31,433 nucleotides of DNA from a virus, in the IMG/VR virus record IMGVR_UViG_3300032309_003027, positions 1-31,433 of that record. One strand, written 5' to 3'. The first letter of the stretch is position 1, and each line of letters begins with the position of its first letter. Positions 725 to 30,587 of the stretch are shown here, in pieces. The translations under genes were made by a program, and so were the position numbers. Under the pieces are notes generated by a model. It was given only the letters and a program-made list of their open reading frames with translations. It did not search any database and had not been told where the DNA came from.

Positions 725-963
725 TTTTCAACTCCAGCTGCAGTTTGAATATCTAAATTATTTTTATTTTGCTTCATTACTATTGATCCTATCATAGTTA
801 ATACTAAAATACAAGCAAAAACTAATCCATAATGTGTTTTTTGTTGAGTTTTCTTTTTGGCCCTATATTGATGAAAATTACTTATAAAATCTTCTGTATC
901 CCTTTTGGATGGAAGGCTCTTTTCATAATTATTCAATAATATATTTCTCAATTGATTATCCAT
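694..963 (-). CDS. Single-pass membrane protein
   Basis: An 89-residue protein. It has a charged cytoplasmic-type N-terminal segment of about 45 residues (MDNQLRNILLNNYEKSLPS at the start, then a basic RAKKKTQQK stretch). One transmembrane helix follows at about residues 47-63 (LVFACILVLTMIGSIVM), then a short polar tail. The basic residues before the helix predict N-in/C-out topology. Its ATG overlaps the TAA stop of the PEP-CTERM gene by 8 nt. The short soluble N-terminus with one helix superficially resembles small anti-sigma or regulator proteins, but no diagnostic motif supports that. Treat it as an unknown envelope protein of the accessory operon. Confidence 0.6.
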   Translation of the reverse strand: MDNQLRNILLNNYEKSLPSKRDTEDFISNFHQYRAKKKTQQKTHYGLVFACILVLTMIGSIVMKQNKNNLDIQTAAGVEKCNTQLMEKK

Positions 964-2671
964 TTCTATTTATTCTATGACAAGCAAGTAAAGAAATCAA
1001 ACCTATTCCAAATAATTGAAGAGCTGATGGTTCTGGAATATTGGAAACAACACTAACTAGTCCATCTGTTGTAAAAGAGGTCGTGTCCCAAACTAATTCA
1101 TTTGAACTTAAAGTTGGTAATGCAATATCTAGTCTTGTTATATCAAATCCAGTTGCATCAATACTTCCAAAATTAAATAGATCATATGAATCTCCAATGG
1201 TATAATTATAATTATCTAATACTTCAAATGTAAAGTTTGTATCTGCTCCAAGAGTTAATAAACTACTTACATCTATTGCATCGTAAGTAATACCTCTAGA
1301 ACTTGGCGCACCTAACTCAAAAATAAAATTACCATTACTTGCATCTAAACTATTCATGCTTAATAAGCCAGCGCTATTTCCTGCTGATATAGTGCCACCA
1401 TTCAAAAGTACTCCTTGTAGTGAACCAGATCCACCCAATAAAGCTCCATTGTTTACTGTAGTCAGAGGACTTTGCAAAGAACCATTCACTATTAATGTTC
1501 CTCCTCCAACGACAGTGTCTCCATTGTATGTGTTCGCTGCTTGTAATGTTACTTTGCCTGTGCCATCTTTTCTTAATCCTCGTACACCAATGCCAGTGTT
1601 GAATAATGATCCATTGAATATGAAATCACCTTGACCACTAATTACGCTAATGTCTGAAACAGTACCACCAACGTCCATAGTTCCATCAAACTGCACTAGC
1701 AAATTAGTACTATTATTAAACAATCTTCTGCCTCCTCCTGAAGCTGCAGATGAAGTTAATATATTAGCAGTATTGGTAAATTGTAGTAACGTCTTACCTT
1801 CGCCACGATTTGTAAAATTTATGTTATTACCTTGGTATTGATTCATAACAAAAGTTGTAACAGCGTTTGTATCATTTCCAATAAGATCTAATGTGCCCAT
1901 GGTTGATATGCTAGTTGAACCTTTTAAACTATTGAGATTAGATAATCCGTTGGTAGTGTTAATTCTTAGTATTGGCATATTAGTTGTTCCACTAGCTCCA
2001 CCCAATGTTATCAAACCTTGACCAAAGCCAGTTCCACCATTTACATTAACTGTACCACCTCCTGTTATATCAAAACCACCACCAAGGGTGTTAGTACCAT
2101 TAAATGTAACACTACCATTTCCTGTATATATAACTTTACCAGCAGTTGACAACCCTCCTTGTCTTAATTCTTTGTTGAATGTGAATGAACCATCTCCTGC
2201 TAATGTAAGAGTTCTGGATGTGCTAGAAGAAGCAGTAGTGAGTGAAGCTGTATTATTAAATACCAATGCTCCTCCTGCAGTTTGAAACCACGTGTTGCTA
2301 TTGTTAGCGTTTTCTAGCAATATGTTAAATGTTTGGGTAGCTATAGAGTTGTTGGTTATGCCTCTGCTAGTTGATAATGTTTGACTACCATTGAAGCTGT
2401 TGATGTTATATGGATTTGCATTGGTTAAGAATGTTATGTTCTGTGCAGATCTGGTAGAAGTTAATACAACAGTATTGTTACTTGCTCCAAAATTGCCAAA
2501 CTGAATTTCATCTGTTGTAGTACTAGAACTAGTAGATGTAGGTTGTACTCCATTAGTCCAACTTGTTGGAGATGTCCAGTTTGTGCCAGTATTATTCCAC
2601 AAGAAAATAACCGCTTGTGAATTAGCAGTTAGTGTTATTGCTGTTAGTATTGTTAGTATTATTTTTTTCAT
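956..2671 (-). CDS. PEP-CTERM surface protein with autotransporter-type beta-strand repeats
   Basis: A 571-residue exported protein. Residues 1-20 (MKKIILTILTAITLTANSQA) are a signal peptide. The body is Thr/Ser/Asn/Gly-rich with the repetitive beta-strand pattern of autotransporter-associated repeats, for example LRKDGTGKVTLQAANTYNGD followed by a GGGTLIVNGSL strand near residues 365-395. This predicts a right-handed beta-helix passenger. Residues from about 547 read IPEPSALQLFGIGLISLLA and then a short basic tail: a PEP-CTERM signal made of Pro-Glu-Pro, a hydrophobic helix and Arg-containing end. In known bacteria such signals are processed by exosortase and the protein goes to the surface or matrix. 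An AAGGAAAA RBS precedes the start. Sampled lines are more GC-rich than neighbouring phage genes (about 38% against about 20%), hinting at acquisition from a host. Confidence 0.88.
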   Translation of the reverse strand: MKKIILTILTAITLTANSQAVIFLWNNTGTNWTSPTSWTNGVQPTSTSSSTTTDEIQFGNFGASNNTVVLTSTRSAQNITFLTNANPYNINSFNGSQTLSTSRGITNNSIATQTFNILLENANNSNTWFQTAGGALVFNNTASLTTASSSTSRTLTLAGDGSFTFNKELRQGGLSTAGKVIYTGNGSVTFNGTNTLGGGFDITGGGTVNVNGGTGFGQGLITLGGASGTTNMPILRINTTNGLSNLNSLKGSTSISTMGTLDLIGNDTNAVTTFVMNQYQGNNINFTNRGEGKTLLQFTNTANILTSSAASGGGRRLFNNSTNLLVQFDGTMDVGGTVSDISVISGQGDFIFNGSLFNTGIGVRGLRKDGTGKVTLQAANTYNGDTVVGGGTLIVNGSLQSPLTTVNNGALLGGSGSLQGVLLNGGTISAGNSAGLLSMNSLDASNGNFIFELGAPSSRGITYDAIDVSSLLTLGADTNFTFEVLDNYNYTIGDSYDLFNFGSIDATGFDITRLDIALPTLSSNELVWDTTSFTTDGLVSVVSNIPEPSALQLFGIGLISLLACHRINRNG

Positions 2672-2672
2672 T

Positions 2673-3404
2673 TTATTTTTTCCTTAACGCTCTTAATCCA
2701 AGTAGTAATCCACTGCCTAATAATAAAGTTGAAACTACTGATGGTTCTGGAACAATTTGTAAAGTCATATTATCTACATTAATTGATCCAGGGCTATAAT
2801 TTTGTTGAGTAATTTCTAAACCAAATTGAGCGACAGATACATCATTTGGAACTATTACTGTAAATTCTCTATAAGTCCAAGTGTCGAGTGGAGTATCTTT
2901 TAATGATAAAAATACAGATGCCCAATCATAATAGTATGAATAATCTTGATTAAAAAATTTAGCATACATTAAAACATCTGTAGTTGCTGCAATTGGATCA
3001 TAACTAGAAACATATACATCCATAGAAAATTTAAGTTCTTTACTTTGGATATATGGAATCCAACCATTTTCTATATCATACCAATCGTCATATATATAAC
3101 CATTAGATGTTGTTACATCTCCTGGACTCCAATATAAGGGCCACATTTTACCTAATTTAGAACCACCTGGAGCTACTATATAAGTTCCATCTGCACCAGT
3201 AGGTGGCGCTCCATATATTGTATCTCCAGAATTTAATACTGATATATTTGCAGATGGATAAGCACTAAATCCAGTCCATGTATCGTCTTCAAAATCCTCA
3301 ACGAAAAGTATTTCAGATTTTAATGATGCTATAGGCAATAAAAAAACCGCAATTAATATTGCGGCTTGGCTTCTTAGTAACCCTTTTAGTAGGTTTATTT
3401 TCAT
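2673..3404 (-). CDS. PEP-CTERM protein, beta-sandwich (lectin/CBM-like) ectodomain
   Basis: A 243-residue exported protein. An N-terminal signal segment (hydrophobic residues about 13-30, AAILIAVFLLPIASLKS) is followed by an aromatic-rich domain starting ILFVEDFED. That opening and the closing NVDNMTLQIVPEPS are typical of PEP-CTERM proteins whose single domain is a concanavalin-like or carbohydrate-binding beta-sandwich. Residues from about 218 (VPEPSVVSTLLLGSGLLLG then LRALRKK) are a classic PEP-CTERM tail: PEP motif, hydrophobic helix, basic end. The RBS AAAGGAG overlaps the stop codon of the upstream gene, and the downstream gene starts 2 nt after this stop, so the three are clearly co-transcribed. 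The ligand is unknown; carbohydrate binding is inference. Confidence 0.85.
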   Translation of the reverse strand: MKINLLKGLLRSQAAILIAVFLLPIASLKSEILFVEDFEDDTWTGFSAYPSANISVLNSGDTIYGAPPTGADGTYIVAPGGSKLGKMWPLYWSPGDVTTSNGYIYDDWYDIENGWIPYIQSKELKFSMDVYVSSYDPIAATTDVLMYAKFFNQDYSYYYDWASVFLSLKDTPLDTWTYREFTVIVPNDVSVAQFGLEITQQNYSPGSINVDNMTLQIVPEPSVVSTLLLGSGLLLGLRALRKK

Positions 3405-5802: not shown

Positions 5803-6288
5803 ATGTTAAAGATATATTGTCAAGATTGTGGATCTCCTACCTCATATACTAGTTTAAAACCTAAATTTTGCAGTTCATGCGCGAAACCATTTGATAAAAG
5901 TATTGTAGTTAATAAAGTCCAAATGGAAAAACCTACATTTACAAAACCGCAAAATATTAAAAAACAAGTTAAATCAAATGTAGACGACGATTATGACTAT
6001 GATAATGAAGATTCGGATAATATTGATTATGTTCCAGATATAGATAAAATTGATATAGAAATAAGTGAAGTAAAGCCAAGAAAAATTAAACTTGGAGACA
6101 TAGTTAATAACCTTACAGAAGAAGCATTTTCTCAAGTAGAAAACTCAAAGCCGATTAAAATGAAAAAGAGTAAAAATACACAAAAGAAAAATCAAATTAA
6201 AAATTCAAAATTTTTAAACGAATTTAAATCAGAAGCGGGTACTTTAAGACCATCTAATAGAAGAAATAGGAAAGAAATAGATGGCTAA
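5803..6288 (+). CDS. Zinc-ribbon protein with acidic and basic tail
   Basis: A 161-residue protein. The frame extends upstream to 5767, but that would translate through the promoter, so ATG 5803 (MLKIYCQDCG) is chosen. Residues 6-26 hold a four-cysteine zinc ribbon: C6xxC9 and C23xxC26 (YCQDCG ... KFCSSCAKPF). After about residue 55 comes a low-complexity acidic stretch (DDDYDYDNEDSDNIDY), then a Lys-rich tail. Such a zinc ribbon plus disordered acidic tail suits a nucleic-acid or RNA-polymerase contacting role. It is the first gene of the operon and overlaps the sigma-like gene by 8 nt, which makes a transcription accessory role attractive, but that is inference. Confidence 0.7.
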   Translation: MLKIYCQDCGSPTSYTSLKPKFCSSCAKPFDKSIVVNKVQMEKPTFTKPQNIKKQVKSNVDDDYDYDNEDSDNIDYVPDIDKIDIEISEVKPRKIKLGDIVNNLTEEAFSQVENSKPIKMKKSKNTQKKNQIKNSKFLNEFKSEAGTLRPSNRRNRKEIDG

Positions 6289-6961
6289 GAAAACAAAGTT
6301 TGAAGATAGAATTGATGAAATAAACACTGAAATTTTAAAAAGAAAAAATAAGTGGAACTTAACAGCTATTGCTTGGATGGATTTCGCAGATGTTTCTCAA
6401 ATTTTAAGATTTCATATTTATAGAAAATGGCACTTATATAATCCAACAAAACCATTAGCTCCTTGGGTTAATCGTATTATAAGTAATCAAATTAAAAATT
6501 TAATACGAAACAATTACAGCAACTACACTAGACCTTGCCTTAAATGTTCTGCAGCAGAAGCAGATGATGGCTGCGCAATTTATCAAAAACAATGTGCGAA
6601 TTGTCCACTTTATGCAAATTGGTCTAAGAGTAAAAAAAATGCGCATGATACTAAATTAACTTTAAGTCTAGAAAATCATGTTCAAGAAATACATGAGATT
6701 CCAAATGAAAATTTTAATATTGAACAAAGCGTTTCAAATACTCATAGAAAAATGGAACAAGTTCTTAAGCCTATAGAATGGAAAGTATATACTTACCTTT
6801 ATATAGAAAATAAAAACGAAGAACAAACAGCAAAATTAATGGGTTATAAAACTACAGAAAAGAATAGAATGGCAGGATATAAGCAAATTAAAAATATCAA
6901 AAAAGCAATCATAACAAAAGTAAAAAAACATTTATATAATGGAGATATTGATATATCATGA
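6281..6961 (+). CDS. Phage sigma-like factor with Cys-cluster insertion
   Basis: A 226-residue protein with the two-domain layout of group 4 sigma factors. Residues about 33-80 (MDFADVSQILRFHIYRKWHL then PLAPWVNRIISNQIKNLIR) match region 2, including the W(L/V)xRIxxN pattern for -10 recognition and core binding. Residues about 165-220 (LKPIEWKVYTYLYIENKNEE, then QTAKLMGY) match a region-4 helix-turn-helix. Between them is an unusual cysteine cluster, C86xxC89, C98, C105 and C108 (RPCLKC ... GCAIYQKQCANC), probably binding zinc. The RBS AGGAAAG sits in the end of the preceding gene. By analogy with T4 gp55 I infer that it directs late transcription, possibly from the GTGTAAT sites. Confidence 0.75.
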   Translation: MAKKTKFEDRIDEINTEILKRKNKWNLTAIAWMDFADVSQILRFHIYRKWHLYNPTKPLAPWVNRIISNQIKNLIRNNYSNYTRPCLKCSAAEADDGCAIYQKQCANCPLYANWSKSKKNAHDTKLTLSLENHVQEIHEIPNENFNIEQSVSNTHRKMEQVLKPIEWKVYTYLYIENKNEEQTAKLMGYKTTEKNRMAGYKQIKNIKKAIITKVKKHLYNGDIDIS

Positions 6962-17582: not shown

Positions 17583-20500
17583 TTAATATAATACCGAAAG
17601 ATTACTAACCAATAAATCTTCATCCTCTTGATATAAATAAGATCCATCAGCGTAAATTTTTTGAACATCTATATTTAAAGATTGAGGCGTTTCATTTGTT
17701 ATATAAGCTATTTCTAAATCATTAGTTTCCCAAACTTTAACTCTATTGTTATACAAACCACCAGAAACAAAAACCATACTATCTTGATAATTTGTATTAA
17801 TTAATTTTATATTATTAAATTGACCAGCTTCTGTATCATTCCAATTTCCATTTAATCTTCCATTTACATCTTGAAAACCAGCAGTTTTAGAAATTTGATT
17901 ATTATGATTTAAACCCCAACCAGTTATAGTTTCATCATTAAAAATTACCATTGTATGAAACCATCCTGCGTGAATCGATTTAACATTATTTAATTTTCCA
18001 ACTGGAGTATTATCCCAATTTCCAGCAAATACTCCACTTAAATTATTTCCATTTATAATTCCAGCCACTTGACCATCATCGTTCCAACCCCAACCTGTAA
18101 CTTTTCCATTATTTAAAAGAGCAAATGAGTGAAGGTGACCTGCGCTTACCATTTTTACCCCAGTCAAGCCATTACCATTTGATGATTGAAAATATTCATC
18201 ATCTCCCCATCCAGTAACTGTTCCACCGCTAATATTTATAATTCCTAAAGAATGATATCCTCCAGCACTTATTTTAGTAATATTAGATAAAAATTTTCCA
18301 CCAGTAGCTTGATTGTAAGTATTATCTCCCCAACCTGTTATTGTACCATTACTTAAAAGAGCAAGAGAATGATATGCTCCAGCACTTATTCCAGTAATAT
18401 TAATAAGTTTTCCAACTTCAGTACTACTCCAATTTCCAGTAAATAAATCATTTATATCGTTACCAATAATTGATGAAGTTACTTGACCTTCATCGTTAGT
18501 ACCCCAACCAGTTACAGTTGTATTAGAAAGTAAAGCTAATGTATGAGCATAATTTGTTTCAATTTTTACTACATTATTTAATTTTCCAGGTTTTGTATTT
18601 TCCCATGTACCAGTAAAAAATCCATCAAAATTATTTTCATTTATACTATTAGTTAATTGTCCATAAGAATTATATCCATAACCAGTTATATTTCCATCAT
18701 TAAAATTTATATAAAAATAATTTAATCCTAAACTCAAACCAGAAATTGATTTATAAACGAAATAGTCTCCTATAAATTGATTCCAAATATCTACAAGATC
18801 TGGAGTGTCTACATTTGTTATATTTGATTTTGCAACAATATTATTATAATTATTTTTTAGTTTCCAAGTATTTGTATAGGAATCAAAATATATATATTTA
18901 TTATCTAAAGGAAACTTTTCTACGCTTATGTAATAATTTTTGTCATTAAAAGTCGTATTACTAGAATATATTCTACTTAAATCAGAAGAAGGGTCTACAT
19001 TCAAAAACACACTTTTATCATCAGATTCAATTAATATAAAATCTTCAATTTTTTCTATACCAAGAATTCCAGACATTTGTAAACTTCTATCATAATTTTG
19101 TTTGTCTGTAAGAGTTGAAAAATTAAACGTAGCAGTTTTTTTACTTCCTATAGTAGAAGAATAAGAAACATTATCAAATTTACAATTAAAAAATTCATAG
19201 TTAAAAGCATTTTTAAATCTTTTTTCAAAAAGACTAGATTGATTTTGTCCACTCCAAATAAAATTAGGATCATAATTACAATAATTTTCACAATTTATTT
19301 TTATATTATATTTTTTATTGCAATCATTGCCTACAAACGATAACAAATTTAAATCATTATTGTTCTCTACAATTAAATCAAGTTTAAGATTTATTGTAAA
19401 TGGAGTATTAACTTGTCTATCCATTGGAAGTTTATAACCAATTGCTTCCATTTTTTCTCTTTCAAAATTAATTGTAAATTCATAAGCTGTAAAAGAAGAT
19501 CCATTTAAATTTAAAAGATTAGCAGTATCTGATTCATTAATTTCTATTTTTATATCTGATGGCAGTAAAGCTGATATTGGATTTCTTGAATCAATTTCTG
19601 AGGGAATATTAAATTTAATTTCATCATTTGGAATATTAGTTTTTGGATTTACATAAGGAGTATTAACTCCGCTTCCACTTAATTGGAAAGACATATTTTC
19701 ACCAATATATGTAACTCCCGCTCTTATAAAATCTCCTACTTGTCCTTTTTGAGTATAAGAAGATATATAGCAATTTCCAAAACTTATTGTTTTAGTATTT
19801 TTAGATCTTTTATTTGCACTTCTTGATATAAAAGTTTGATCATCTGGATCAAAAAATGTTTCATTTAAATTTTCATTTTGATCTTCTTCATTTTCTGAAA
19901 CGGCAATAAAAATATTTCTTTGATCTTTTGTATTAAGAGGCCAATAAGGATCATTAGTTACGCAATCGTATTCAGTTACATTAGGAATTTCTTGTCCAAA
20001 ATTTTCTCCAAAAATATTTAGACTTGAATTAAAGTAGGTTAAAGATGTTCCGTAACTTGTAGCAATTTTATTTACATTTTCAAATTTACCTACTATTGTA
20101 GAATTCCAATCTCCAGTAAATATTCCGTTTACATCATTATAAGAAATATTTTGATTTAATTGTCCAACGTTATTAAATCCCCAACCAGTAATTTTATTAT
20201 TTTCTAAAAGTGCAAGAGTATGAAACCATCCTGCATGAATTGATTTTACTCCAGTAAGTTTTCCAACTGGAGTAGTGCTCCAATTTCCAGTAAAAATACC
20301 ACTATTATTATTTAAATTTTTTACTCCAGCAATTTGACCATCATCATTCCATCCCCATCCAGTAACTGTTCCATTATTAAAAAGTGCAAATGAATGCAAA
20401 TGACCAGCACTGACCATTTTTATTCCAGTTAAATTATTTCCTTTTGATGACTGAAGATATTCATTATCTCCCCATCCAGTAACTGTTCCATTATTTATAT

Positions 20501-21683
20501 CTCTTATTACTAAAGAGTGATACCCTCCTGCAGAAATTCCAATAATTCCAGTTAAATTATTTCCACCAAGAGCTTGTCCAGAGGAATTATCTCCCCATCC
20601 AGTAATTGTTTTATCATTCAATAAAACTAACGAATGATATGCTCCAGCACTAATTGCACTTGCTCCAGTTATATTACTTATTGGAGTATTATTAAAATTT
20701 CCAGTAAATAAAAAATTTTCATCATTATAAATAGTAGTTCCAACCGCTTGTCCTTCATCATTACTTCCCCAGCCAATTACAGTATCATCAGAAAGTATAG
20801 CTAAATTATGCAAATAATTAGAACTTATTTTTTTAATTCCATTTAATTGTCCAATTGAAGTAGCAGAAAAAAATCCAGTAAATTGTCCATTACTATCATT
20901 TTCATTTAGAGTATTAGTTATTTGTCCTTCGCTATTGTCACCAAAACCGATTAATCTACCATCACTTTTTAAAATAAATGCATGATAAAATCCAGCTGTA
21001 ATATCAATTAAATTATATAAATATGCATTTTTTCCTAAATAATATGGAACAATATTAGAAATAACATTTTTATTTGGACTTATATGTTTCCTGTATTCAA
21101 AACATTTAGAATCTATTGGTAAACCTTCTCCTCGTATTGTATCTGGAATAACTTCAGGTTTAATATAATCTCTATTCAAAAATCCACTAAAAAGAAATAA
21201 AGGTTCACTATTATCTGTTCTATAAAAATATTTATCTCCAGTATATGGATAATCTAATCTCGGATAGTTAACATTAAATCCCATGCGAGCTTCATTTCTT
21301 AAAGAAGATAAAATATAAGAAAAAGATATATCGACTTCTGGATTATTTATGCTGACACTATCTACGTAAGATTTTCCAGAATTTAATTGATTTATAATCG
21401 TTCTGTTTGATCTTATTTGATAAGAAATATCTTGTATTCTATCTAATCTTTTTAATAAATTATGGTTTCTTGGAAAAGTATTTTGATTTTTATCTTTAAG
21501 TATAACATTACTTATTACTGCTGGATTTGGGCTAATATGCTTAAAGTCTTCATAAGTTACATAAGGAAAGTCTTCATGATTATTATTTAGACCACCAGAA
21601 TAATTGATAAAATGATAACCGCTAGCTGGACAAGGACCAATAAAAATATCTTGAACATTATAATTTATCCTATTTCTAGACAT
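17583..21683 (-). CDS. Giant double RCC1 beta-propeller virion protein
   Basis: A 1366-residue protein with two RCC1-type beta-propellers. Block 1 spans about residues 225-560 and block 2 about 980-1330. Each shows seven blade motifs of the type ISAGAYHSLALLSNGTITGW followed by GDN..GQ. Both have the same blade spacing (about 58, 58, 39, 41, 58, 58 residues), and the longer blades carry the same FTGNW...GKL insertion, so an entire propeller was duplicated. Between them (about 570-970) is a non-repetitive region with SFGNCYISSYTQKGQVGDFI, resembling a phage tail or adaptor domain, and the N-terminal 220 residues form a separate domain. No signal peptide. RCC1 propellers bind proteins; here they probably form a particle-associated adhesin or spike. 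The 25-nt leader precedes the start. Confidence 0.8.
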   Translation of the reverse strand: MSRNRINYNVQDIFIGPCPASGYHFINYSGGLNNNHEDFPYVTYEDFKHISPNPAVISNVILKDKNQNTFPRNHNLLKRLDRIQDISYQIRSNRTIINQLNSGKSYVDSVSINNPEVDISFSYILSSLRNEARMGFNVNYPRLDYPYTGDKYFYRTDNSEPLFLFSGFLNRDYIKPEVIPDTIRGEGLPIDSKCFEYRKHISPNKNVISNIVPYYLGKNAYLYNLIDITAGFYHAFILKSDGRLIGFGDNSEGQITNTLNENDSNGQFTGFFSATSIGQLNGIKKISSNYLHNLAILSDDTVIGWGSNDEGQAVGTTIYNDENFLFTGNFNNTPISNITGASAISAGAYHSLVLLNDKTITGWGDNSSGQALGGNNLTGIIGISAGGYHSLVIRDINNGTVTGWGDNEYLQSSKGNNLTGIKMVSAGHLHSFALFNNGTVTGWGWNDDGQIAGVKNLNNNSGIFTGNWSTTPVGKLTGVKSIHAGWFHTLALLENNKITGWGFNNVGQLNQNISYNDVNGIFTGDWNSTIVGKFENVNKIATSYGTSLTYFNSSLNIFGENFGQEIPNVTEYDCVTNDPYWPLNTKDQRNIFIAVSENEEDQNENLNETFFDPDDQTFISRSANKRSKNTKTISFGNCYISSYTQKGQVGDFIRAGVTYIGENMSFQLSGSGVNTPYVNPKTNIPNDEIKFNIPSEIDSRNPISALLPSDIKIEINESDTANLLNLNGSSFTAYEFTINFEREKMEAIGYKLPMDRQVNTPFTINLKLDLIVENNNDLNLLSFVGNDCNKKYNIKINCENYCNYDPNFIWSGQNQSSLFEKRFKNAFNYEFFNCKFDNVSYSSTIGSKKTATFNFSTLTDKQNYDRSLQMSGILGIEKIEDFILIESDDKSVFLNVDPSSDLSRIYSSNTTFNDKNYYISVEKFPLDNKYIYFDSYTNTWKLKNNYNNIVAKSNITNVDTPDLVDIWNQFIGDYFVYKSISGLSLGLNYFYINFNDGNITGYGYNSYGQLTNSINENNFDGFFTGTWENTKPGKLNNVVKIETNYAHTLALLSNTTVTGWGTNDEGQVTSSIIGNDINDLFTGNWSSTEVGKLINITGISAGAYHSLALLSNGTITGWGDNTYNQATGGKFLSNITKISAGGYHSLGIINISGGTVTGWGDDEYFQSSNGNGLTGVKMVSAGHLHSFALLNNGKVTGWGWNDDGQVAGIINGNNLSGVFAGNWDNTPVGKLNNVKSIHAGWFHTMVIFNDETITGWGLNHNNQISKTAGFQDVNGRLNGNWNDTEAGQFNNIKLINTNYQDSMVFVSGGLYNNRVKVWETNDLEIAYITNETPQSLNIDVQKIYADGSYLYQEDEDLLVSNLSVLY

Positions 21684-25584: not shown

Positions 25585-25601
25585 TTAATCTTTAGATTAA
25601 T
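25584..25601 (+). terminator. AT-rich hairpin at capsid stop codon
   Basis: ATTAATC, loop TTTA, GATTAAT: a perfect 7-bp stem starting at the last base of the capsid stop codon, only 7 nt before the strong terminator stem. It may protect the mRNA 3' end from exonucleases or assist termination. Confidence 0.4.
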
Positions 25602-25608
25602 ATCAGAG

Positions 25609-25640
25609 GCCCACAGGATAATCCCTGTGGGCTTCTTTTT
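25609..25640 (+). terminator. Strong intrinsic terminator after major capsid gene
   Basis: GCCCACAGG (25609-25617), loop ATAATC, CCTGTGGGC (25624-25632): a perfect 9-bp GC-rich stem, extendable by an A-U and a G-U pair, followed by TTCTTTTTTT. It is the clearest intrinsic terminator in this AT-rich window and closes the head operon. Confidence 0.9.
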
Positions 25641-25643
25641 TTA

Positions 25644-25690: not shown

Positions 25691-26032
25691 ATGCCAAAAA
25701 AGAAAAATAAATTAGATTCACTAACTCAAACTCATGCTCAAGTAGAAAGCCCAAGAACATTAGACCAAGTATGGGGAGATTCTGGTCAAGGTAAGTATGG
25801 AACACTAGTTCTTGCAGAGTATCAAAAATATTTAAAAGAATTAACTAAAAGTGACATTCAAGCTCACGCAATCAAAATAGGCCTTATTCCTGTAGACAAC
25901 AGAGACACTCTAGTAAAAAGACTAGAAAGAGAATTCAATAAACATGTTTCTCTTTATCAACCAGCACCAAAAACAAAAAATGATCTTAAAATTAGTAAAT
26001 CTGCAAGAGATATTCTAGCAGAAGGCCGCTAA
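25691..26032 (+). CDS. Small SAP/HeH-like protein next to capsid
   Basis: A 113-residue protein with RBS AGGAGAA. It has a basic N-terminus (MPKKKNK), a middle block TLDQVWGDSGQGKYGTLVLA, and a helix-turn-helix-like segment LTKSDIQAHAIKIGLIPVDN then RDTLVKRLEREF (about 55-90). That segment resembles SAP/HeH-type DNA-binding or Rho-N-like modules often found in small phage proteins near the major capsid gene. The tail is charged and disordered (DLKISKSARDILAEGR). Function is uncertain: a head-completion or internal DNA-contacting protein is possible. It is isolated between the capsid terminator and the next GTGTAAT site. Confidence 0.65.
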   Translation: MPKKKNKLDSLTQTHAQVESPRTLDQVWGDSGQGKYGTLVLAEYQKYLKELTKSDIQAHAIKIGLIPVDNRDTLVKRLEREFNKHVSLYQPAPKTKNDLKISKSARDILAEGR

Positions 26033-26036
26033 TTTT

Positions 26037-26043
26037 GTGTAAT
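26037..26043 (+). promoter_or_regulatory. GTGTAAT promoter candidate before structured leader
   Basis: GTGTAAT lies 4 nt after the stop of the preceding gene and overlaps the first two bases of the 5' arm of the three-way-junction RNA. If transcription begins just downstream, the mRNA would start within or at the base of that structure. Confidence 0.45.
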
Positions 26044-26101
26044 ATTTGTTGTTAGTCTGCCTAAAAGCAGCAATTTAGCGCAAGCTAATAACAACAAATA
26101 T
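26042..26101 (+). ncRNA. Compact three-way-junction RNA leader
   Basis: A 60-nt non-coding leader folds by inspection into a perfect three-way junction. P1 is 26042-26054 (ATATTTGTTGTTA) paired with 26089-26101 (TAACAACAAATAT), 13 bp without mismatch. P2 is CTGC (26057-26060) with GCAG (26067-26070), loop CTAAAA. P3 is TTAGC (26075-26079) with GCTAA (26084-26088), closed by a GCAA (GNRA) tetraloop. Linkers are GT, CAAT and none. The outer stem ends at the base directly before the fibre start codon at 26102, and no Shine-Dalgarno is present. It could be a translation-regulating element, an mRNA 5'-end stabiliser or a ribozyme-like domain. I do not recognise the class. No second copy was seen. 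Confidence 0.6.
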
Positions 26102-27829
26102 ATGGCACAAAGATTTAAGGCTAAGACATTACTATCAAATAGTGGCGTTTTTAATAACGAAGTAGTTGCTCCTAATCTCGTTTACAATACTGGTAATCAA
26201 ACTATTAGTGGAGATAAAACTTTTTCGGCTATTAGTTTATATGATCCAAATGATCGAATGCAAATTAGTATTTATCCATCTGGAGAAGGAAGTATTGCTG
26301 GGCCATTCATTGGTTCTAACGAATATTTAACAATTGCTGGTTTTAATAGAGCTCAAAATATAAATCTCAATGAGGAATATGTAAAAATTACAGCTGGAAG
26401 CGGAGCTTCTAGTATAGAAGTAAATTATAATGGATCAATTTATTTAAACGGCAAAACAGTTGGAAAGACTGGCACTTTTGAAAAACTTTATGCTGACAAT
26501 TTAGTTTACAAAACTGGCGATCAAACTATTTCTGGGATAAAAACTTTCGCAACTGGAGTAAATATTAGTGGTCATGTGGGTATTGGTATTAATAATAATG
26601 ATAAATTCGGATTGTATGTTAGAAAATCTGCAGCAGGAGTTACTGTAAATCCAGATGCGGGTAGTATTGCTGTGTTTGAAGGAAGTGGAAATTCTCATAT
26701 AACTGTTCTAGCATCAAATGCGCAAACTGCTGGTGTGGTACTTGGTAGTCCAGCTGATAACTTTGGTTCATACTTAAGCTGGAATCATGATAACAGTGCT
26801 TTGAAGCTTGCAACCGCAAAAACTAGTGGTTTTATACAAATCTTGACTAACGATGAAAATGAAGCTGTAAGAATTACAAGAAGTGGTGATGTTGGTATTG
26901 GCACAATTTCTCCATCTGAAAAATTACAAGTAGTTGGAAATATATTAGCAAATAATCTTGTATATAATACTGGAAATCAAAGTATAAGTGGAAATAAAAC
27001 TTTTGTTACAGGAATAGTAGCTCCTAATTTAGTTTATAATACTGGTGAACAATTTGTTTCTGGATTAAAACAATTTGACACAAGACCAACTGTCAATGGT
27101 ACAGGAGTTCTTCTTAGTGGTGAAGCAGCAAGTCTTCCAACAACTATAGTTTATACCACTGGTAACCAAACTATTAGTGGAGTAAAAACTTTTCAAACTG
27201 GAGTAGTAGTTTCTGGCAACCTTCAAGTTTCTGGATCTGGTATTTTTAATTCTGTTGATTTAAATAACGTAGATACTCTAAGTCTTTCTGGAGTAAATGT
27301 AACTATAACAAATGGAAATATTGCTTTAACAAATCGTCCAACAGTAAATGGCACAGGAGTTCTTTTAAGTGGATCTACGCCATTTGTTATGAATTTTGGT
27401 CATGTACGACATAATACAACCGCAGGTGATCAAAGACATTATTTTGGACCACCAATAGAGATTAGTCCAGTTAGTTTAGCTAATAATGAAAAAAGAAGAG
27501 TTCAAATACTCCAAGACTGTTTTTTAAGAAAAATTGTATGGACTAGTTTATCAAGAGATAACGCTCCAACCCCAAGTAATGCAATGACTGGATATTTTAA
27601 AAATTTTGGAAACAATGCGCTTACTGATGATCCATCTTCAGGAATTCAAGTCACGTCCGCAATAAATATTCCTTCGACAAACACAATGTACTCTAACTCT
27701 ACTGGAACTTTAAATATACCAATAACAGGTGGAAATTATGTATCTTTTTATTATCAAAGTAATTTTAATGCTGGATCTAATAATCAGGCCTCTGGTTTAG
27801 GGGTCAATGTTTATGCATACTTTGAGTAG
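26102..27829 (+). CDS. Fibre protein with GNQTISG repeats
   Basis: A 575-residue virion fibre-like protein. Five copies of a module like NLVYNTGNQTISGDKTF occur near residues 26, 133, 283, 309 and 350, and RPTVNGTGVLLSG occurs twice (about 330 and 418), a shaft pattern familiar from phage tail fibres. SGDVGIGTISPSEKLQVVGN (about 260) is the same GIGT motif seen in the minus-strand fibres. The C-terminal about 150 residues (PFVMNFGHVRHNTTAGDQRH onward, ending GLGVNVYAYFE) are non-repetitive beta-rich sequence, the likely receptor-binding or trimerising tip. There is no SD: translation starts directly after the three-way-junction RNA. Its end overlaps a 21-codon ORF. Confidence 0.8.
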   Translation: MAQRFKAKTLLSNSGVFNNEVVAPNLVYNTGNQTISGDKTFSAISLYDPNDRMQISIYPSGEGSIAGPFIGSNEYLTIAGFNRAQNINLNEEYVKITAGSGASSIEVNYNGSIYLNGKTVGKTGTFEKLYADNLVYKTGDQTISGIKTFATGVNISGHVGIGINNNDKFGLYVRKSAAGVTVNPDAGSIAVFEGSGNSHITVLASNAQTAGVVLGSPADNFGSYLSWNHDNSALKLATAKTSGFIQILTNDENEAVRITRSGDVGIGTISPSEKLQVVGNILANNLVYNTGNQSISGNKTFVTGIVAPNLVYNTGEQFVSGLKQFDTRPTVNGTGVLLSGEAASLPTTIVYTTGNQTISGVKTFQTGVVVSGNLQVSGSGIFNSVDLNNVDTLSLSGVNVTITNGNIALTNRPTVNGTGVLLSGSTPFVMNFGHVRHNTTAGDQRHYFGPPIEISPVSLANNEKRRVQILQDCFLRKIVWTSLSRDNAPTPSNAMTGYFKNFGNNALTDDPSSGIQVTSAINIPSTNTMYSNSTGTLNIPITGGNYVSFYYQSNFNAGSNNQASGLGVNVYAYFE

Positions 27830-29285: not shown

Positions 29286-30587
29286 ATGCCCGCTACTTAT
29301 TCGTATGATGCAGGAACAGACTCTTATTTTGTAACTGGTGGCTGCGGTGATGCAACTATAATTATAACAGATACACATGATGATGGAAGTAATGGGGTTC
29401 GTCCAGTAACAAGAATTAATGCTGACACTTTTGTAAATTGCACAAGTTTAGTAACTCTTATACTAGGCAATAACGTAACAACAATTGGACGTCGAGCTTT
29501 TCAATATTGTAGTAATTTAACTTCAGTTACATTTCCTACAAGTAGTTTAACAACAATTCGTCGTGGTGCGTTTTGGGGAACTGGATTGATTAGCGTAGCT
29601 ATCCCAAACTCTGTAACAAGTATGGAAGATAGTATATTTGTAGATTGCATTAATTTAGCTAGTGCTACTTTACCAATTAACGCAACTATAACTACAGTTC
29701 CTCAAGGAACATTTGTAAATTGCACATCATTAACATCAATAACTATACCTTCAAATTATACTACAATTGCACAAGACGCTTTCACCATATCTGGTTTACA
29801 AACAGTAGTATTAAATGAAGGATTATTAGATATTAGAACTCAAGCTTTTTATGGATGTAGATCTTTAAGAGGTACTTTAACTATTCCTAATAGCGTAATA
29901 AGTATTCGAAATAGAGCATTCGAAAAAACAGGAGTGGCTCCATCTGGATCAAATGAATTTAATGTGGTAATTGGCTCAGGAGTAACAAGTCTTCAGTCTC
30001 ATTGTTTTTATGAATGCTATGCTAAAAGTTTTACTTTTATTACAGGAAATTCATCAATGCTTATTGGTCCTGGAGTATTTTTTGGTTGTATTTATTTAAC
30101 AAATTTATCTATTCCAAATTCTGTAACTACTATATATCCATATAGTGTGGATCCAGCTGGTTTTCGTTATACAGATGCACCATTTACTGGAACTACTTTA
30201 AATTCTTTAAGAATTGGAAATGGATTAGTCGTAAATTCTCTCTCTTCTGGCGGTACGAGTCATCTTGATTTTTCTCAAATATTTGTTGGAGCAAATATAT
30301 CAAATTTAGTACTTGGAAAAGGAATAATTGAGGTGGAGCAGAATTCATTTTATAGTTCTGGAAATACATTTAGAACTAATTTAAAATCTATAACTTTTGA
30401 AGGTAAAATGAGGGGATTATTCAATACTTCTACTTTTGGTACTTTGTATAGGCCTATGCCAAATTTAACTGAAATTTTTTTTGATGAATTTACTGATGAA
30501 TTTATTATGGGCGATGATACTTATTTTAATGTAAATTATGATATAAAAATTTATATTAAACCAAAACAAAATTTAAGGATATTTTAA
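29286..30587 (+). CDS. BspA-type leucine-rich-repeat adhesin
   Basis: A 433-residue protein without a signal peptide, so presumably virion-associated rather than secreted. An N-terminal block MPATYSYDAGTDSYFVTGGC is followed by tandem BspA/LRR_5-type repeats of about 23 residues through most of the protein: TFVNCTSLVTLILGNNVTTI, AFQYCSNLTSVTFP, AFWGTGLISVAIPNSVTSM and others ('I..xAFxxCxxLxxVxIPxSVTxI'). Such repeats form a curved solenoid used for ligand binding, and in phages and bacteria they are typical of adhesins. The C-terminal 100 residues degenerate and end IKPKQNLRIF. Placement beside fibre genes suggests a receptor-binding accessory. It starts 5 nt after the lipoprotein stop. Confidence 0.8.
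   Translation: MPATYSYDAGTDSYFVTGGCGDATIIITDTHDDGSNGVRPVTRINADTFVNCTSLVTLILGNNVTTIGRRAFQYCSNLTSVTFPTSSLTTIRRGAFWGTGLISVAIPNSVTSMEDSIFVDCINLASATLPINATITTVPQGTFVNCTSLTSITIPSNYTTIAQDAFTISGLQTVVLNEGLLDIRTQAFYGCRSLRGTLTIPNSVISIRNRAFEKTGVAPSGSNEFNVVIGSGVTSLQSHCFYECYAKSFTFITGNSSMLIGPGVFFGCIYLTNLSIPNSVTTIYPYSVDPAGFRYTDAPFTGTTLNSLRIGNGLVVNSLSSGGTSHLDFSQIFVGANISNLVLGKGIIEVEQNSFYSSGNTFRTNLKSITFEGKMRGLFNTSTFGTLYRPMPNLTEIFFDEFTDEFIMGDDTYFNVNYDIKIYIKPKQNLRIF

Follow-up and report, generated by a model that had tools for sequence, protein, structure and literature searches.

A structured element directly upstream of a fibre gene

The window, by which we mean the whole stretch of 31,433 nucleotides of viral DNA analysed here (IMG/VR record IMGVR_UViG_3300032309_003027), contains a fibre gene whose ATG has no Shine-Dalgarno sequence and directly abuts an element made of a perfect 13-bp inverted repeat enclosing two hairpins (Table 1). 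The arms, the hairpins, their positions and the abutment on the ATG had been described correctly in an initial annotation of the sequence. RNAfold gives a three-way junction as the minimum free energy structure of the element, at -19.2 kcal/mol (z -5.1), and none of 200 shuffles folded as well. The window is A+T-rich, and neither the repeat nor the folding energy is unique in it. Of 200 dinucleotide-shuffled windows, 22 (11%) contained a perfect inverted repeat of 13 bp with arms 3-60 nt apart, and 23 of the 10,458 60-nt segments scanned folded at -19.2 kcal/mol or below, roughly half of these covering the terminator that follows the capsid gene. The element is thus not the only structured non-coding stretch of its size, as had been thought. 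Since such repeats occur in shuffled sequence and other segments are equally stable, the evidence that the single sequence provides for the element is moderate. The most stable fold in the window is a strong intrinsic-terminator-like hairpin followed by a T run, located directly 3' of the capsid gene (25598-25643).

Table 1. Positions of the features discussed in the text
Feature	Position	Strand	Description or basis
Long lock	26030-26118	+	read-through RNA only, window clade only; opening-cost computation
Fibre promoter motif GTGTAAT	26037-26043	+	phage-specific, -10-like; copy statistics
All GTGTAAT copies	4632, 4640, 5016, 10827, 14674, 22303, 26037, 27873, 27950		
Whole element	26042-26101	+	perfect 13-bp inverted repeat enclosing two hairpins
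Outer stem, 5' arm ATATTTGTTGTTA	26042-26054	+	fully complementary to TAACAACAAATAT, spacing 34 nt
Outer stem, 3' arm TAACAACAAATAT	26089-26101	+	fully complementary to ATATTTGTTGTTA
Outer-stem extension ATATTT	26042-26047	+	overlaps promoter; pairs with 26096-26101 in read-through RNA only
P1, 5' strand GTTGTTA	26048-26054	+	conserved portion of outer stem
Predicted start of fibre mRNA	26048-26051	+	inferred from promoter spacing
P2 hairpin CTGC-CTAAAA-GCAG	26057-26070	+	conserved AAAA in loop; double compensatory changes
P3 hairpin A-(U)-UUAGC-GCAA-GCUAA-U	26073-26089	+	GNRA loop; covarying pairs
Hairpin 2, TTAGC-GCAA-GCTAA	26075-26088	+	core of P3
P1, 3' strand TAACAAC	26089-26095	+	RNAfold and comparison of relatives
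Linker AAATAT, 6 nt, from P1 to start codon	26096-26101	+	
Fibre start codon ATG	26102-26104	+	conserved N-terminus MA[QN]xFKAKTL in about 30 contigs
Fibre gene	26102-27829	+	
Sigma-70-like protein with Cys-rich middle	6281-6961	+	candidate reader of GTGTAAT; PF04542, TIGR02937

Elsewhere the window carries other genes of note. Downstream of the fibre gene, 29286-30587 encodes a 433-amino-acid protein with BspA-type leucine-rich repeats (PF13306, E 2e-52). On the minus strand, 17583-21683 encodes a predicted protein of 1366 amino acids with many 'GWGxNxxGQ'-type repeats, which we take to be reminiscent of RCC1 repeats. Two adjacent minus-strand genes at 956-3404 encode secreted-looking proteins with C-termini resembling PEP-CTERM sorting signals, one of which also has autotransporter-type beta-strand repeats; this is unusual cargo beside phage genes and hints at the host group.

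Compensatory changes support a two-hairpin junction

Relatives of the fibre gene and of the major-capsid-like gene are numerous in IMG/VR, and the same core was found before fibre genes with the N-terminus MA[QN]xFKAKTL in about 30 IMG/VR contigs, with 25 distinct element sequences in all. Across these relatives, 95.7% of the alignment cells of P2 and P3 are paired and five pairs show double compensatory changes. Covariation was seen in 37 cells compared with 13.8 in shuffled alignments, none of 500 shuffles reached the score, and the signal collapsed in a control in which the pairing partner was slid by one column. In P2, two pairs are doubly changed (CU/AG to UC/GA), with 100% pairing in 23 distinct sequences. 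In P3, the pairs 26073-26089 and 26077-26086 switch jointly between A-U and G-C in 11 of 23 distinct sequences. When states were traced on a tree from the coding DNA of the fibre, at least two changes were needed for the P2 state and for each of the two P3 states followed; the statistics rest on only 4-5 distinct leader lineages, so that independent events are few. The initial annotation had held that a lack of compensatory substitutions in relatives, or a folding energy no lower than that of dinucleotide shuffles, would speak against a functional RNA. Neither condition refutes it: compensatory substitutions are present in the stems, and the element folds better than its shuffles.

The P3 loop is of the GNRA type (GCAA, GUAA or GAAA) in all clades but one, which has CCUAAAA(A) instead of the tetraloop. 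The unpaired AG before P2, the AAAA in the P2 loop and the CA between P2 and P3 are conserved to the same degree as the paired bases. P1 is paired in all four members of the window clade. Its innermost five pairs form in each of the 24 sequences, the pairs themselves differing in the other clades; the alignment contains a two-column register shift between clades that was placed by hand. In each of the three nearest relatives (L001, L024 and L027), a G.A mismatch interrupts the outer 6 bp (ATATTT/AAATAT). We therefore do not regard the 13-bp outer stem, perfect as it is in the window, as a conserved feature: only about 7 inner base pairs are kept.

A rod-like alternative is the minimum free energy fold of the trimmed sequence 26048-26101 (-17.1 kcal/mol). 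Only 68.8% of its cells are paired across the relatives, with no clear excess of covariation, and it was rejected in favour of the two-hairpin junction on the strength of this conservation. U26089, which can pair within P1, may alternatively close P3 with A26073, a pair that covaries as A-U/G-C. The element is a conserved structured RNA consisting of two hairpins, P2 and P3, held by a short stem, P1.

A search of the window against Rfam, ribozymes and riboswitches included, gave no match above the gathering score, and at permissive E-values the window and four relatives gave chance matches only. The suggestion of a ribozyme-like domain thus finds no backing in Rfam, and no ribozyme signature was seen. 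Searching the open-access literature, we found no description of a leader of this kind. Structured leaders of phage mRNAs are a known kind of element; this RNA motif is new.

The element accompanies a single fibre family

The initial annotation had proposed a covariance search for the element in viral sequences. Searches of whole records with a covariance model gave a single strong match in each, always before a fibre gene with the MA[QN]xFKAKTL N-terminus. The core accompanies this gene even in contigs in which it has moved away from its place behind the capsid gene and a gene for a 113-amino-acid protein. In capsid-bearing records without this fibre, the search returned nothing beyond two chance-level matches. 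Occurrence before other genes was rejected, the two weak covariance matches (20-21 bits) having no GTGTAAT at the locus and being attributed to chance. A comparison of the window clade with the L045/L048/L058 clade gave 94% identity for the core and 32% for third codon positions at the beginning of the fibre gene. The distance of 6 nt between P1 and the ATG also recurs in the L119/L135 clade. Element and fibre N-terminus are conserved as a unit across genome contexts and the remaining fibre is mosaic. The mosaic fibre of the window is composed of 'PNLVYNTGxQTISGxKTF' repeats, which recur in many different fibres of related phages.

Two contigs differ from this picture. L137 is truncated by the contig end and just a P3-like hairpin is visible. 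The diverged fibre of L157 has a different two-hairpin leader at the same place (2916-3000 of L157), unrelated to the core, with one hairpin at the inferred transcript start and a second with a GUAAAA loop. Outside this phage group, bacterial homologues were rejected: a pattern search of 84,980 genomes gave 8 matches, all chance-like, the best of them (in SAR86, before lepA) without P3. A relaxed promoter-plus-P2 pattern run over IMG/VR revealed by eye no member beyond the known contigs. Among isolated phages, the capsid protein matched none of 50,697 phage records and DNA matches stayed at chance level.

A phage-specific promoter motif makes the element a probable 5' leader

Each of the nine GTGTAAT copies of the window closely precedes a gene and is in the correct orientation. 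In the relatives, 139 of 199 copies (70%) lie at most 70 nt before the start of an open reading frame, compared with a mean of 3% for permuted heptamers, and the motif precedes every complete fibre leader found. GTGTAAT had been noted as the motif inside which the element starts; it is a promoter motif and no part of the RNA fold. Since it stands directly upstream, the element would form the 5' leader of a fibre mRNA transcribed from this promoter. Among the promoters of the relatives, 48 of 139 show the favoured spacing GTGTAAT-N7-ATG. From this peak we infer that transcription starts about 8 nt after GTGTAAT and that many transcripts are leaderless; the phage group thus has a probable large set of leaderless mRNAs. 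The fibre leader is among the longest at GTGTAAT promoters.

The motif may plausibly be read by the sigma-70-like protein of the window, a candidate late sigma factor that matches PF04542 (region 2) at an E-value of 6e-5, just below the curated cut-off, and TIGR02937 at 5e-6, also below the cut-off.

The 5' end and the start region of the predicted transcripts

We computed how accessible the 5' end and the initiation region would be. Over the first five nucleotides of the predicted fibre transcripts, the mean unpaired probability ranged from 0.00 to 0.79 and was mostly below 0.5, compared with a mean of 0.73 for 120 other GTGTAAT transcripts. Most fibre leaders have 0-1 free 5' nucleotides in the minimum free energy structure at the inferred start; 5'-end pairing was weaker in L024, L065 and L119 (0.69-0.79 unpaired). 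The initiation region opens at about 4 kcal/mol in the predicted promoter-initiated RNAs.

A different situation is predicted for RNA that reads through from upstream. GTGTAAT overlaps the 5' arm of the outer stem, so the promoter lies within the 5' strand of a longer lock, in which pairing of the promoter region with codons 3-6 would enclose the element and the AUG. In the window, opening the region from -14 to +12 costs 17.5 kcal/mol in read-through RNA versus 3.8 kcal/mol in the predicted promoter-initiated RNA. The read-through cost is 8-11 kcal/mol in the three nearest relatives. The other clades show no consistent difference (2-7 kcal/mol for read-through versus 1-5 kcal/mol), and 119 control genes have a mean opening cost of 7.2 kcal/mol. 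In the window clade, locking of the start codon in read-through RNA would mean that fibre is made only from its own promoter. As a general function, a lock like that of T4 gene e was rejected, since it is confined to the window clade and the other clades fall within or below the control range.

Discussion

The proposal that the element is an mRNA 5' element controlling fibre translation or stability is supported by its position, its conservation, the compensatory changes and its linkage to one fibre family. As to how it acts, we tentatively favour, with a confidence somewhat short of even, a conserved structured leader of a separately promoted fibre mRNA that likely shields the 5' end and presents the start codon. 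Transcription would begin about 8 nt 3' of GTGTAAT; given such a start, the 5' end of the fibre RNA would itself be base-paired. The pairing would be provided by P1 in the window and L119/L135 clades, by a separate hairpin at the 5' end in the L048/L060 clades and by a 9-bp hairpin in L157. The ribosome-binding region would stay open, and the 5'-terminal structure would guard the message against 5'-end-dependent decay. The A-rich loop of P2, which is conserved, and the bases of the junction would probably bind a protein or form a tertiary contact. Several observations count against this reading: 5'-end pairing is weaker in L024, L065 and L119, energy models prefer the rod over the junction for the window without the outer 6 bp, a start at 26051 leaves about 4 bp of P1, and the leader lineages behind the statistics are few. 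In addition, the conserved loop sequences exceed the needs of simple end protection. In a more far-reaching version, which we consider improbable, the leader would represent a novel class of cis-regulatory RNA in phages, its junction tying the 5' end to about 6 nt before the start codon. An mRNA with a leader of about 50 nt and no Shine-Dalgarno sequence would then be presented to the ribosome like the leaderless mRNAs that seem to be in wide use in this phage group, and the conserved A-rich loop would contact a protein or the ribosome.

The conserved unpaired bases bear on a translational operator, in which the P2 loop and the junction would be bound by the fibre protein, by a chaperone or by some other protein of phage or host. 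The bound protein would repress or activate fibre translation, as gp43 and gp32 of T4 act on their own mRNAs (PMC3014915). That the AG, the loop AAAA and the CA are as conserved as paired bases fits this idea, as do the recurrence of an A-rich UAAAA loop in the diverged leader L157 and the T4 precedents. However, no candidate binding protein was identified, and conserved loops may also be tertiary contacts. Nor does the window have another TAAAA-loop hairpin with similar pairing at a similar distance before a gene, so no regulon is visible. We consider an operator, in either direction of control, rather unlikely. The timing lock, by which the start region would be shut in read-through RNA and only promoter-derived RNA translated, draws on the position of the window promoter in the 5' strand, on the difference in opening cost and on a layout equal to that of T4 e, soc, 49 and I-TevI (PMC3014915). 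As the main function it is unlikely: it is not conserved outside the window clade and cannot account for the conserved P2/P3 core. It is probably a secondary feature of the window clade.

Sensing of a ligand or of temperature by a riboswitch whose P1 hides the ribosome-binding site would suit the L045/L048 and L119 clades, where an AAGGA-like sequence in P1 is paired with UCUUU. The window clade, however, keeps P1 although its P1 has no Shine-Dalgarno sequence, no Rfam riboswitch matches, and the start region is cheap to open in the predicted RNAs, which makes such a switch very unlikely. We are equally doubtful that the conservation is one of DNA, as a recombination boundary for exchange of fibre modules or as an operator. 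The conserved unit of element and fibre N-terminus in differing contexts, next to a mosaic fibre, would agree with this, but the double changes in P2 and P3, the GNRA loop varying only at N and the variation of the bulged base form the pattern of an RNA fold, with which a recombination role could coexist. That the repeat is without function can be practically dismissed: its frequency in shuffled windows is outweighed by the conservation and covariation of the element and by its perfect association with the fibre gene. Chance is refuted for P2 and P3; the outer 6 bp may be due to it.

The structured leader that we favour has parallels in several known systems. According to literature cited in PMC3997798, the leaders of E. 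coli ompA and papA are 5'-terminal stem-loops that stabilise mRNA. They share with the element a structured leader with an open initiation region and a 5' end that, in the element, is paired from the predicted transcript start. They differ from it in that the element is a three-way junction with sequence-conserved loops, found in uncultured phages before one fibre family, and that its stabilising effect is predicted. The other comparisons with T4 come from PMC3014915. As in gene e, soc, 49 and I-TevI, the DNA for the 5' strand of a structure contains the promoter, and in read-through RNA this structure shuts the start region; unlike in gene e, the lock is restricted to the window clade and the core is separate from it, persisting in promoter-initiated RNA. 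Like the split ribosome-binding sites of genes 38 and 25, the element is a leader structure before the start codon of a late tail or fibre gene, but it has no upstream Shine-Dalgarno sequence whose spacing the structure could shorten: between the predicted start and P1 none was found in any clade, AAGGA occurring in or after P1 in other clades. A conserved UA-rich loop in a leader hairpin is shared with the gene 43 RNA operator (UAAC in T4), which in contrast is a single hairpin serving an autoregulated polymerase. The marine phage motifs manA and wcaG (Rfam; PMC2864571) are likewise conserved structured RNAs, possible phage 5' UTRs and mostly metagenomic, but they belong to different genes and the element matches no Rfam model.

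This work provides an undescribed RNA motif, with its alignment and covariance model, for a group of uncultured phages, and it reveals the promoter motif of the group and its probable large set of leaderless mRNAs. It also shows that the leader and the N-terminal part of the fibre travel together from one genome context to another. If the mechanism that we favour is true, the element would be a simple case in which an RNA structure sets the level of a host-recognition protein.
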